32,224 nt of DNA from a virus: positions 1-32,224 of the IMG/VR virus record IMGVR_UViG_3300047557_001594; one strand, written 5' to 3'. The position numbers were made by a program, and so were the translations under genes. The notes under the pieces were generated by a model that was given only the letters and a program-made list of their open reading frames with translations, did no database searches and was not told where the DNA came from. Of the stretch, positions 3,000 through 12,366 are shown one piece after another; position 1 is the stretch's first letter; every line of letters starts with the position of its first letter.

Positions 3000-3174
3000 C
3001 GGAATCTATTTAACTAAGAAAGTTGGCAAAACAGGCGGTGAGTATTTAGAACTTTCAATCAAAGAAGGGGAAGCATATAAAAAATATGTTTGCTTTCTGA
3101 GTAAAAAGAAAGATAAATACGGAAATGATTTTTACGTAATCTATAACAAAACAAAAGAAGATTTACCATTTTGA
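2965..3174 (+). CDS. Hypothetical small beta-rich protein, 69 aa
   Basis: The ATG at 2965 is within the preceding gene. The product (MEQNSKNQNFANGIYLTKK...) has alternating beta-type segments, Lys-rich loops and a C-terminal ending EDLPF. An acidic/aromatic tail of this kind, together with a beta barrel-sized body, resembles small OB-fold or ssDNA-associated phage proteins, but no diagnostic residues allow a call. It is part of the replication block and its stop overlaps the TTG start of the next gene. Confidence 0.7.
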   Translation: MEQNSKNQNFANGIYLTKKVGKTGGEYLELSIKEGEAYKKYVCFLSKKKDKYGNDFYVIYNKTKEDLPF

Positions 3175-3605
3175 AACAGGAGTCAACAGCTAAAAACCTT
3201 ACGAGAAATTCTATCCAGAATCTAATTAAACAGCATTATGAAATGATTTCAAAGCTCGAAAAGCTTTTAGATCAATTCCCTGTAATTGAAAGAGTTGCGA
3301 GAAATATGCGACGCCCTGCGGATGAAATAGTTACCGCAGTTAATGAAGTATTTAACACCGATTGTCAAGAGGCTTCGAGAAGGCAAAGAGTAAAAGACGC
3401 GAGGCATTGCGCTGTTTACTTTTTGAGACAATATACCGACCTTACATTAAAAGAAATCGGGGAATATATCAGCGAAGGCGCACATCATACAACGGTCTTA
3501 CATAGCATAAAGGTTTGTAAAAATCTGGTCGAAGTTGATGAGAATTTTGCAGAAAAATTCGCTCAGGCAAAACTTTTAATTGATTCTAAATTGAATATTT
3601 CGTAA
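3171..3605 (+). CDS. DnaA domain IV-like DNA-binding protein, 144 aa
   Basis: The TTG start at 3171 overlaps the previous stop (TTGA). Residues about 47-120 match the DNA-binding domain IV of DnaA: RRQRVKDARHCAVYFLRQ corresponds to the basic loop and first helices, LTLKEIGEYI to the helix-turn-helix, and HHTTVLHSI (105-113) to the DHTTVLHA signature that contacts the DnaA box. The AAA+ ATPase domain is absent, and the N-terminus (residues 1-45) is a separate helical segment. A free-standing domain IV could bind DnaA boxes as an initiator, adaptor or decoy. The following gene carries 18-bp repeats with DnaA-box-like TTATACAAA. A host-type promoter overlaps its stop codon. Confidence 0.85.
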   Translation: MKQESTAKNLTRNSIQNLIKQHYEMISKLEKLLDQFPVIERVARNMRRPADEIVTAVNEVFNTDCQEASRRQRVKDARHCAVYFLRQYTDLTLKEIGEYISEGAHHTTVLHSIKVCKNLVEVDENFAEKFAQAKLLIDSKLNIS

Positions 3606-3610
3606 CTTTG
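3580..3610 (+). promoter_or_regulatory. Bacteroidota-type promoter for the replication gene leader
   Basis: TTG (3580-3582), a 20-base spacer, and TAACTTTG (3603-3610), a perfect match to TAnnTTTG. The -7 box overlaps the TAA stop of the DnaA-like gene. Start of transcription would be near 3616-3618, exactly where the first hairpin of the structured leader begins. Confidence 0.7.
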
Positions 3611-3616
3611 TAAAAC

Positions 3617-3700
3617 GAAGGATGCAGCCTTCAGTAAAAAACATTAATTATCCCTGATGGGTGCGGAACTGCATTTCCAATCCCTTCAGGGATTTTATTT
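3617..3700 (+). ncRNA. Structured RNA with two hairpins and complementary loops
   Basis: Hairpin 1: GAAGG (3617-3621) and CCTTC (3628-3632) enclose the six-base loop ATGCAG. Hairpin 2: ATCCCTGA (3650-3657) pairs with TCAGGGAT (3686-3693), inside it GGG (3659-3661) with CCC (3682-3684), inside that GGAA (3665-3668) with TTCC (3675-3678), leaving the six-base loop CTGCAT (3669-3674). The two loops are perfect reverse complements over all six bases, so they can form a kissing complex. Hairpin 2 is followed by ATTTTATTTT, a terminator-like tail, just before the ATG at 3702. It may be a stand-alone RNA of about 85 nt or a regulated leader of the replication gene. Confidence 0.65.
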
Positions 3701-3701
3701 T

Positions 3702-4424
3702 ATGAATACAGGGCAAATAATAAAAAGTAGATCAACTGAAAGATTTACGACATTACCGAATGAAATAATAAAATCGAAAAGTTTATCGCTCGATGAAAAA
3801 GGATTGTTAAGTTATCTTTTAAGCCTGCCTTCCGATTGGGTTATTTATAAGCAGAATTTATACAATAATTTACCAGACAAAAAAGGATCAATTGATCGAG
3901 CTTTTAAAAATTTGCAAAATAAAGGATATATCATTTCTGTTAAAGTGCATGATTCCTCTTCAGGTAGATTTATCGGTTGGAATCACGTAGTTTATGATAT
4001 ACCTGCCGATATCGACAAAAACCTAAATTCGGAAACACCGAGTTCGGAAATTTCCGATTTCGGTAAAAATGATGTTATACTAAAGACTAATGTTATACAA
4101 AAGACTGATTTAATACAAAAGACTAAGTGTATACAAAATCCCTCTCTTATAGAAGTTGAAAATTATTTTTTAGAAAAAGGCAGTACGATAGAAAAAGCAA
4201 GGCAGGCTTACGAATATTATGAAGTTGCGAATTGGCATGATTCAAAAGGAAAAGCGGTAAAAAATTGGAAGCAAAAAATGTTGGCAGTATGGATTAATAA
4301 CAATAATTTTAACAATAACTTTAAAAAATCTAAAACCGAACAATATGCAGACTGGTTTAACAAACTCACAGCTAATATCGGAAGCGAAAAAGACTCCGAG
4401 ATTGGCAGACTCGGAAACGGCTAA
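3702..4424 (+). CDS. Winged-helix phage replication protein (O-like) containing iterons
   Basis: I chose the ATG at 3702 because the in-frame ATG at 3657 lies inside a hairpin. The 240-residue product has an N-terminal winged-helix region (about 14-85, FTTLPNEII... LSLDEKGLLSYLLSLP... NLQNKGYI) like phage replisome organisers. A low-complexity linker (about 123-146) repeats a six-residue unit of the type NVIQKT. The C-terminal module (about 150-197, FxxxG...Y..YE...W...KAVKNWKQKM...W) is typical of phage replication proteins. The linker is encoded by four 18-bp direct repeats preceded by a palindrome, the arrangement of the lambda O gene and its origin. It overlaps the next gene by 80 bases. 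The function, origin binding and helicase recruitment, follows from architecture and position. Confidence 0.75.
   Translation: MNTGQIIKSRSTERFTTLPNEIIKSKSLSLDEKGLLSYLLSLPSDWVIYKQNLYNNLPDKKGSIDRAFKNLQNKGYIISVKVHDSSSGRFIGWNHVVYDIPADIDKNLNSETPSSEISDFGKNDVILKTNVIQKTDLIQKTKCIQNPSLIEVENYFLEKGSTIEKARQAYEYYEVANWHDSKGKAVKNWKQKMLAVWINNNNFNNNFKKSKTEQYADWFNKLTANIGSEKDSEIGRLGNG
4037..4064 (+). repeat. 28-bp imperfect palindrome upstream of the iterons
   Basis: TCGGAAATTTCCGA (4044-4057) is a perfect 14-bp palindrome. Flanking ACCGA (4037-4041) and TCGGT (4060-4064) extend it to 28 bp with two mismatched positions per arm. TTCGGAAA is also directly repeated at 4029-4036 and 4043-4050. It lies seven bases before the first 18-bp iteron, inside the replication gene. 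Confidence 0.7.
4071..4142 (+). repeat. Four tandem 18-bp iterons (candidate replication origin)
   Basis: Units at 4071-4088, 4089-4106, 4107-4124 and 4125-4142. The second reads AATGTTATACAAAAGACT. The core TATACAAAAGACT is kept with few changes in the first three, and the fourth keeps TATACAAAA. Each contains a sequence close to the DnaA box, for example TTATACAAA at 4093-4101 compared with TTATnCACA. AT-rich DNA follows (4143-4185). Four 18-bp iterons within the initiator gene is the layout of the lambda origin. Confidence 0.7.
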
Positions 4425-10927: not shown

Positions 10928-11046
10928 AAAAGTCAAATTCAGATAAAATAAAAATAAGTTTCGGCAAGCGCAAAAAAGGAAAAGCACAAAAATCATTTAA
11001 CAAACATGATCGCAAAGAACGCAACTATCGTGGTCAAGGCAGGTGA
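10924..11046 (+). CDS. Very small basic phage protein, 40 aa
   Basis: ATGA overlap with the methyltransferase stop; TGA at 11044-11046. The product is strongly basic (MKKSNSDKIKISFGKRKKGK...) and ends SFNKHDRKERNYRGQGR. I recall similar 40-60 residue basic proteins ending in YRGQGR in Bacteroidota phages. The charge suggests DNA, RNA or polymerase binding. Its last 41 bases overlap the ParB-like gene in another frame. Confidence 0.7.
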   Translation: MKKSNSDKIKISFGKRKKGKAQKSFNKHDRKERNYRGQGR

Positions 11047-11611
11047 AATTAAACCTAATCCAAATAACCCGAGAATAGTAAAAGACGAGAAGTTCAAAAA
11101 GCTCGTTCAATCTATTAAAGATTTTCCAGAGATGCTCGAGATAAGACCAATCGTAGTAAATGACGATATGTTTGTACTTGGCGGAAATATGCGTTTAAAA
11201 GCTTGCAAGGAAGCAGGATTAAAAGAAATCCCAATTATAAAAGCTTCGAGCCTTAGCGATGAGAAACAAAAAGAATTTATAATTAAAGATAACTTAGGTT
11301 ATGGAGAGTGGGACTGGAATATGATCGCGAATGAATGGAATAGTGAAGAGCTTGAAGAGTGGGGAATGGATATTCCAGGTTTTACAGATATTGAAGACTT
11401 GGGTGAATCATTTTCTTTACCGAGTGGAGATAAAAGTCCATTTCAGCAAATGACGTTTACTTTAGCGGATCAGCAAGCCGAAGTGATTAAAAATGCAATA
11501 GAGGAAATAAAGAAAAGCGAAGAGTATAAATATTGTGAAACATTCGGCAACGAAAATGGTAATGGAAATGCGCTTTATTTATTGATTTCAAATTTTACTA
11601 ACCAAAGATAG
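11006..11611 (+). CDS. ParB-like nuclease domain protein, 201 aa
   Basis: The N-terminal domain follows the ParB/Srx fold: IKPNPNNPRIVKDEKFKKLV, ... IRPIVVNDDMFVLGGNMRLKACKEAGLKEIPII. The GGNMRLKA motif is the GxxRxxA nucleotide-binding box (CTP or ATP in the superfamily). The C-terminal half is acidic and includes EWDWNMIANEW and a helical domain with a Gln-rich part. In phages this type is usually next to DNA methylase or Mom-like genes, as here, and may locate the modification machinery on DNA rather than act in partitioning. The TAG stop overlaps the GTG start of the next gene by one base. Confidence 0.82.
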   Translation: MIAKNATIVVKAGEIKPNPNNPRIVKDEKFKKLVQSIKDFPEMLEIRPIVVNDDMFVLGGNMRLKACKEAGLKEIPIIKASSLSDEKQKEFIIKDNLGYGEWDWNMIANEWNSEELEEWGMDIPGFTDIEDLGESFSLPSGDKSPFQQMTFTLADQQAEVIKNAIEEIKKSEEYKYCETFGNENGNGNALYLLISNFTNQR

Positions 11612-12303
11612 TGGGCAGAGCAAAAGAAATACAAGTAAAAGTCATCGCATCTAAAATAGCAAATGAATTTGTAAAGCTTCACCATTATTCGGGTAAAGTG
11701 GTACAAAATAGCTCTTTACATTTTGGCGCTTTTTTAGACGGAAAACTGCATGGAGTTTTATCTTTTGGCAGTAGCTTAGATAAAAGAAAGACAATTGGAT
11801 TAGTTGAAGGCACAGGTTGGAATGAATACCTCGAATTGAATCGCATGGCTTTTGATGACTATTTGCCTGCAAATTCTGAGAGTCGCGTTATATCTGTATG
11901 TTTAAAGCTCATAAAAAAGAATGCACCGCACATAAAATGGATTCTTTCGTATGCTGACGGATGCGATTGTGGAGACGGCACAATATACAGGGCGAGTGGA
12001 TTTCATTTAACTATGATAAAAAAGAACAGCGATTTATTCCTGTTACCGAATGGCGATAAAATTCATTCAATGACGATAAAGAGCAGCAGAGAAAGAATGT
12101 CAAAGTATGGTAATTGGTTAAATTATCTTAATACAGAACATGAAGGTTGGAAAAAGCTCGAAGGTTATCAATTTAGATATATTTACCTTATTGATAAAAG
12201 TTGTAAATTAGCTGTGCCCTCAATTCCATTTAGCAAAATAGATGAGGTCGGTGCAGGAATGTATAAAGGAGAAAAAATAAGTTTAAAAGATAGGCGAATA
12301 TAG
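11611..12303 (+). CDS. Mom-like adenine modification enzyme, 230 aa
   Basis: GTG start. The protein fits the Mom family: LHHYSGKVVQNSSLHFGAFL near the N-terminus, GVLSFGSSLDKRKTIGLV, then LELNRMAFDDYLPANSESRV, then ISVCLKLIKKNAPHIKW, and SYADGCDCGDGTIYRASGF. Phage Mu Mom is a GNAT-like enzyme that turns adenine in DNA into a carbamoylmethyl derivative and so protects the DNA from restriction. Length matches Mu Mom (about 230-240). Together with the adjacent ParB-like protein and methyltransferase it forms a modification cluster. The last 10 bases are also the first bases of a tRNA gene. Confidence 0.8.
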   Translation: MGRAKEIQVKVIASKIANEFVKLHHYSGKVVQNSSLHFGAFLDGKLHGVLSFGSSLDKRKTIGLVEGTGWNEYLELNRMAFDDYLPANSESRVISVCLKLIKKNAPHIKWILSYADGCDCGDGTIYRASGFHLTMIKKNSDLFLLPNGDKIHSMTIKSSRERMSKYGNWLNYLNTEHEGWKKLEGYQFRYIYLIDKSCKLAVPSIPFSKIDEVGAGMYKGEKISLKDRRI

Positions 12304-12366
12304 CTTAATGGTAAAGCGGTTTTCATTCCAGAAAACAGAAGGCGGTTCGATTCCGACCTATTCGCT
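12294..12366 (+). tRNA. tRNA-Gly(UCC)-like gene with unusual anticodon loop
   Basis: Acceptor stem GCGAATA (12294-12300) pairs perfectly with TATTCGC (12359-12365), and T12366 is the discriminator. The D arm is GCTT-AATGGTA-AAGC. The anticodon stem is GTTTT with AAAAC, enclosing an eight-base loop CATTCCAG, one base more than standard. The T arm has loop TTCGATT and a stem GGCGG with CCGACC carrying one bulged A. Reading U33 as the first T of ATTCCA gives anticodon UCC (glycine GGA codons). G1-C72, C2-G71 and U73 agree with glycine identity. CCA is not encoded. The extra bases may mean a degenerate tRNA or an expanded-loop one. Confidence 0.7.

Follow-up and report, generated by a model that had tools for sequence, protein, structure and literature searches.

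A leader of constant layout (TAnnTTTG, hairpin 1, linker, hairpin 2, T-run and gene) stands before the replication genes in dozens of related Bacteroidota phages, and in it the loops of the two hairpins vary between phages yet remain exact reverse complements of each other over 6 to 8 nt, in about 40 versions. Compensated change of both loops on this scale points to loop-loop recognition, as in pT181-type attenuators, and the comparison of related sequences strongly supports both the maintenance of the kissing pair by selection and the RNA nature of the leader. Overall, the explanation that probably fits these data best is attenuation of the replication operon by a terminated leader RNA of about 85 nt, with the kissing loops serving as a specificity code.

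Anatomy of the leader and its neighbouring genes

The stretch of viral DNA analysed, hereafter the window, comprises positions 1 to 32,224 of the record IMGVR_UViG_3300047557_001594 on one strand. An earlier reading made from this sequence alone had described two hairpins with complementary loops behind a host-type promoter of the form TTG-N20-TAACTTTG and in front of a U-rich tail, and each of these elements was recovered on the plus strand. The predicted Bacteroidota-type promoter (3580-3610), read directly and located as a pattern, consists of TTG (3580-3582), a spacer of 20 nt and TAACTTTG (3603-3610). Hairpin 1 (3617-3632; GAAGG-ATGCAG-CCTTC) has a 5-bp stem and the loop ATGCAG (3622-3627), which corresponds to a variable complementary loop in relatives, and is followed by a single-stranded, A/U-rich linker of 17 nt (3633-3649) that is unpaired in the minimum free energy (MFE) fold. 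Hairpin 2 (3650-3693) comprises three nested helices (3650-3657/3686-3693, 3659-3661/3682-3684 and 3665-3668/3675-3678) closed by the loop CTGCAT (3669-3674), which is the exact reverse complement of loop 1 at 6/6 bases and covaries with it in relatives. The terminator-like U-rich tail, TTTATTTT (3694-3701), abuts the start codon, the ATG at 3702; it was read directly, and a plain terminator scan of the window independently marked the hairpin 2/U-tail site. Both hairpins were contained in the RNA MFE structure of the window leader (-28.6 kcal/mol, z -3.44, with 0 of 200 shuffles equally stable), and the calculated energy of the kiss duplex was -6.2 kcal/mol in the window and ranged from -5.6 to -11.3 kcal/mol across leaders. 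The 3' arm of hairpin 2 can also fold alone into a small terminator hairpin (AATCCC-TTCA-GGGATT, 3679-3694), and the 5' arm is self-complementary as well, giving two alternative folds at this site.

The gene that starts at the end of the tail, P0001 (3702-4424, plus strand), matched PHROG families of replication initiation proteins (best such match phrog_4707, E 1e-12), consistent with its earlier designation as a replication gene. Its product has a winged-helix-like N-terminal domain and a C-terminal domain common to several replication-protein types, and tblastn matches were to phage Rep/DnaD-like genes. Directly upstream of the leader, a small protein (3171-3605, plus strand) consists of the DnaA C-terminal DNA-binding domain only (Pfam PF08299, E 5.4e-13), and its stop codon falls within the leader promoter. 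Elsewhere in the window, a Mom-like DNA modification gene (11611-12303) adjoins a ParB-like/methyltransferase-like gene (11006-11611), and a tRNA (12294-12365) overlaps the end of the Mom-like gene.

Loop complementarity in one sequence is weak evidence, since a loose hairpin-pair descriptor returned dozens of chance pairs within the 32-kb, A/T-rich window, and the finding therefore rested on relatives.

Matched loop pairs in related phages

Relatives were viral-contig loci (L numbers), mostly metagenomic, fetched by homology to P0001; searches with the upstream DnaA-domain protein, with two unrelated heads of replication proteins and with a DNA pattern for the scaffold of hairpin 2 yielded further ones. 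Most related leaders carried TAnnTTTG or TAnnTTCG upstream of hairpin 1, the T-run usually comprised 6 to 8 T within the 8 nt 3' of hairpin 2 across the leader family, and the hairpin 2 scaffold GGGTGCGG..CCAATCCC was kept in near relatives of the window leader. Among 51 leaders, the linker had a median length of 16 nt, and the spacing from loop to loop was 37-49 nt in 43. In a variant represented by four leaders (L117, L119, L126 and L132), loop 1 finds its complement in a 7-nt bulge of the 3' arm of hairpin 2, and not in the apical loop. With a Bacteroidota promoter, a kissing pair and a terminator-like hairpin 2 recurring in relatives, the earlier proposal of an RNA of about 85 nt appears well founded.

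The leader did not accompany every homolog. No leader was found directly upstream in L018, L040, L136, L139 and L143; in L025 and L141 it lay about 470 nt further upstream, before another gene; and L018 and L020 contained complementary 9-nt stretches with a fold different from that of the leader family. Relatives in bacterial genomes were few, none with a convincing leader. Distant homologs also occur in gut phages (Bacteroides C1_85S2P, Parabacteroides PDS1 and Alistipes AS73P1); these were considered and rejected as carriers, since their genes abut or overlap and leave no space for a leader.

In addition to ATGCAG/CTGCAT of the window, the loop pairs included GTGGCTT/AAGCCAC, GAGTCAG/CTGACTC, GTTGCAG/CTGCAAC, GTCGGAT/ATCCGAC, GTAGAGG/CCTCTAC, GTCGCAG/CTGCGAC, GGACGAG/CTCGTCC, GTGGAGT/ACTCCAC, TCCGTACA/TGTACGGA, GTAGTATG/CATACTAC and GATAAGGG/CCCTTATC. 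The count of about 40 derives from an automated listing of 40 sequences, from which CATTGA (L069) and CCGCCAG (L327), not counted as family members, were removed and to which GTGGAACG (mumin phages), GTACGAC (Cellulophaga phi19:1/phi10:1, read by eye) and GCTGCAT (L440) were added; several loops were assigned by eye on printed sequences, and exact complementarity was then verified by script. Variation in loop 1 was lower at the first nucleotides (G in 25 and T in 20 of 30 seven-mers) than at the other positions. Alteration of one loop without the other, which the sequence-only reading had named as evidence against its proposal, was approached only by L066, the sole imperfect pair, with 5 contiguous pairs; the other pairs, about 40, stayed matched.

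Chance pairing of the loops was ruled out by a permutation test and a reverse-strand control. When hairpin 1 loops were called blind by MFE and compared with the downstream part of their own or another leader, the sum of the longest matches was 154 for own pairs, against a maximum of 124 in 100,000 permutations. Over 2.6 Mb of loci, an automated strict detector (promoter, hairpin 1, complement and terminator; score of at least 17) found 41 distinct leaders on the plus strand, and the reverse strand gave only 6 promoter-bearing matches, all of them genuine leaders on unoriented loci. Of the 51 leaders, 50 folded more stably on the plus strand (mean -31.8 vs -24.9 kcal/mol), although the Wilcoxon value of this comparison should not be taken literally because the leaders are related; better folding of the plus strand is expected where G-U pairs are tolerated and thus argues for an RNA. 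A search of the window and 14 related loci against Rfam 15 returned tRNAs and no family at or above the gathering threshold for the leader, with weak matches to CRISPR repeats far below threshold, and we found no described family for such a leader in the open-licence literature, in agreement with the earlier statement that none was known in Bacteroidota phages.

The kissing letters changed faster than the rest of the leader. In 23 non-overlapping nearest pairs of leaders, they differed at 54 of 316 positions (17.1%), vs 199 of 2141 (9.3%) in the scaffold (p 6e-5), and the difference persisted when one side of the kiss only was counted (27/158, p 0.003). Between L013 and L286, for example, 2 of 90 scaffold positions have changed, as against 3 of 6 kiss positions, each of the latter with compensation; L027 and L033, whose loci are 96% identical over kilobases, differ at 4 of 89 scaffold positions and at 3 of 7 kiss positions, again compensated; and L032 and L178 have a common scaffold with almost all kiss letters different. 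Other close leader pairs retained their loops unchanged, suggesting that loop change comes in bursts. Most Lillamyvirus and Muminvirus isolates with a rep-primase module share one identical leader, so diversification is not universal.

Replication modules and cultured phages that carry the leader

The leader precedes at least four unrelated N-termini of replication proteins, of the MNTGQIIK (winged-helix-like), MAKDPAVLFYTSDF, MEQPSWAAV and MEHHFDKDF types. In L013 and L071, an identical leader stands before unrelated replication heads, and the recombination joint between these two loci coincides with the start codon. The leader also occurs among cultured phages of Flavobacterium and Cellulophaga, and strictly lytic replication has been reported for several of these. 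In isolates of Lillamyvirus, Muminvirus and Hattifnattvirus it is followed by a small gene and then by rep and primase genes, and in the mumin, mymlan and snusmum phages by a small gene and a helicase gene, in a helicase operon. Its retention before unrelated heads and before the helicase operon indicates that the leader is tied to the replication module and not to one protein. The loop is GTGAGACG in the rep-primase isolates, GTGAGAAG in morran and GTGGAACG in the helicase-type isolates, with an exact complement in each, so that lillamy, mumin and morran, which have the same host, represent three matched loop types; the elemo phages have the loop TGAGAGC.

A second conserved element, AATAGTTRTMGGT..(small hairpin)..AACC, was noticed between the leader and the start codon, at about 818-860 in L462, 1501-1541 in L480 and 801-846 in L483. 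It is common to lillamy phages and Cellulophaga phi19:1/phi10:1 and weaker in the crAss-like phage cr55_1, and its small stem appears to covary (AGGT/ACCT vs CGGT/ACCG).

Proposed mode of action, alternatives and related systems

From its anatomy, the leader quite probably acts as a short terminated RNA that attenuates the replication operon. Transcription from its own promoter would stop after about 85 nt at the intrinsic terminator that hairpin 2 and the U-tail form. With this terminator just before the operon, synthesis of replication proteins would depend on read-through transcripts or on ones that begin further upstream. Loops 1 and 2 would form a kissing helix of 6 to 8 bp, and this contact is most likely also intermolecular, since matched loop pairs diversify at a higher rate than the remaining RNA. 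As phage copies rise, the terminated RNA may accumulate, and pairing of its hairpin 1 loop with the loop of hairpin 2 on nascent transcripts may favour termination, so that expression of the replication genes would be damped by copy number. Co-infecting phages of the same loop type would be damped too, making the loops an incompatibility code, and action in cis and in trans would be compatible if the two partners compete. We give action in trans with phage-specific recognition a little under an even chance. The fuller proposal, put forward tentatively, is an RNA incompatibility code of lytic phages: diversifying selection would act on the matched 7-nt loops, through which a phage would sense its own copy number and block replication of co-infectors of the same loop type. 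The apical-loop kiss alone does not determine formation of the outer terminator stem.

The sequence-only reading had also suggested a leader that switches between termination and read-through. As an either/or choice within one molecule, this was not supported, because we saw no conserved antiterminator helix rivalling hairpin 2; the hairpin at 3679-3694 competes with it, on inspection, in the window and a few relatives and was not found conserved in the family.

It is possible, although somewhat doubtful, that the contact is purely intramolecular, the loops kissing within the molecule and thereby speeding the folding of the terminator or stabilising the RNA, with letters free to drift as long as they match. 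The narrow loop-to-loop spacing and linker length fit such a kiss and count against action in trans, as a tethered partner should outcompete a free one, and a kissing helix is compatible with a complete hairpin 2 and also with the 7-nt bulge variant of L117, L119, L126 and L132. However, under drift alone a segment constrained on both sides would not be expected to outpace its scaffold, or to show bursts of three compensated changes alongside 2-4 scaffold changes, as in L013/L286 and L027/L033. Since each change in the kiss takes two mutations, slower evolution than in the scaffold would be expected; the kiss changes faster, which points to selection for new matched specificities and hence to an interaction between molecules.

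The promoter and terminator would make plausible a stable sRNA of the phage with other targets, such as host or phage mRNAs, whose place before the replication genes would be just its locus. This is improbable, however, as the place before replication modules is kept even where the replication genes have been replaced, and no conserved partner of loop 1 was found other than loop 2 of the same leader.

An immunity RNA of the P1 C4/P4 CI type, also raised by the sequence-only reading, would fit a layout that resembles that of an RNA stopping replication-gene transcription (PMC4825925). In the strict lysogenic sense this fared poorly and is very improbable: the lillamy/mumin group is reported to lack genes for lysogenic replication and to be capable of lytic replication only (PMC7077304), no integrase or repressor match was found among the genes of the window, and no leader was found before the relatives in bacterial genomes. 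Because of the lytic carriers and the lack of an integrase or repressor match in the window, lysogenic immunity is unlikely as the common function. Least probable of all, a DNA element (hairpins or a cruciform of a replication origin or single-strand initiation site) would suit the adjoining replication initiator and DnaA-domain genes, but is opposed by the strand asymmetry of the fold in 50/51 leaders, the promoter and T-run on one strand, and the absence of a GC-skew switch at the leader site in the window.

If the preferred reading of an attenuating leader RNA is correct, common aquatic phages would possess an RNA family not described before, whose kissing contact is backed by about 40 compensated versions. 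Lytic phages would then have a sequence-specific control of replication by RNA whose specificities can be exchanged, a type of control known until now mostly in plasmids and temperate phages. As cultured phages of the same host with different loop types exist, copy control, exclusion of co-infecting phages and RNA orthogonality are directly testable.

By analogy, the leader may represent a variant form of RNA control of replication genes, related in logic to P4 CI, IsrK and pT181. In P4 CI and P1 C4 RNAs, specificity resides in complementary stretches. The P4 CI RNA is a short untranslated phage RNA that derives from the leader of a replication gene, is complementary to sites in the same leader and causes premature termination (PMC4825925). 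The likeness to P4 CI and to P1/P7 C4 thus lies in a short RNA from a replication-gene leader with a complement within that leader; those RNAs, however, have longer pairing and two complements (seqA and seqC), whereas here a loop kiss of 6-8 nt involves one complement, the carriers include lytic phages, the intrinsic terminator stands at the start codon, and no sequence relation was detected. In pT181, a loop-loop contact likewise controls termination before a replication initiator gene, and loop and upper-stem sequences help to set orthogonal specificities (PMC3753616), but the partner comes from an opposite-strand antisense gene, whereas here both partners lie in one sense RNA, so that matched double mutations are required. 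We found the complement on the same strand, better folding of the plus strand and conserved promoters on the plus strand, and thus no antisense gene of the pT181 type; nor did we find the lysogenic or plasmid-state role of P4 CI and P1 C4, or an Rfam match to a known covariance model. The leader is therefore a member of neither system. IsrK of Gifsy-1 activates translation, is not a kissing-loop family before replication genes and has no known sequence relation to the leader. It resembles the leader in that a single promoter gives rise both to a short RNA that terminates and to an mRNA made by read-through, the short form of IsrK acting in trans on the long one (PMC4825925).
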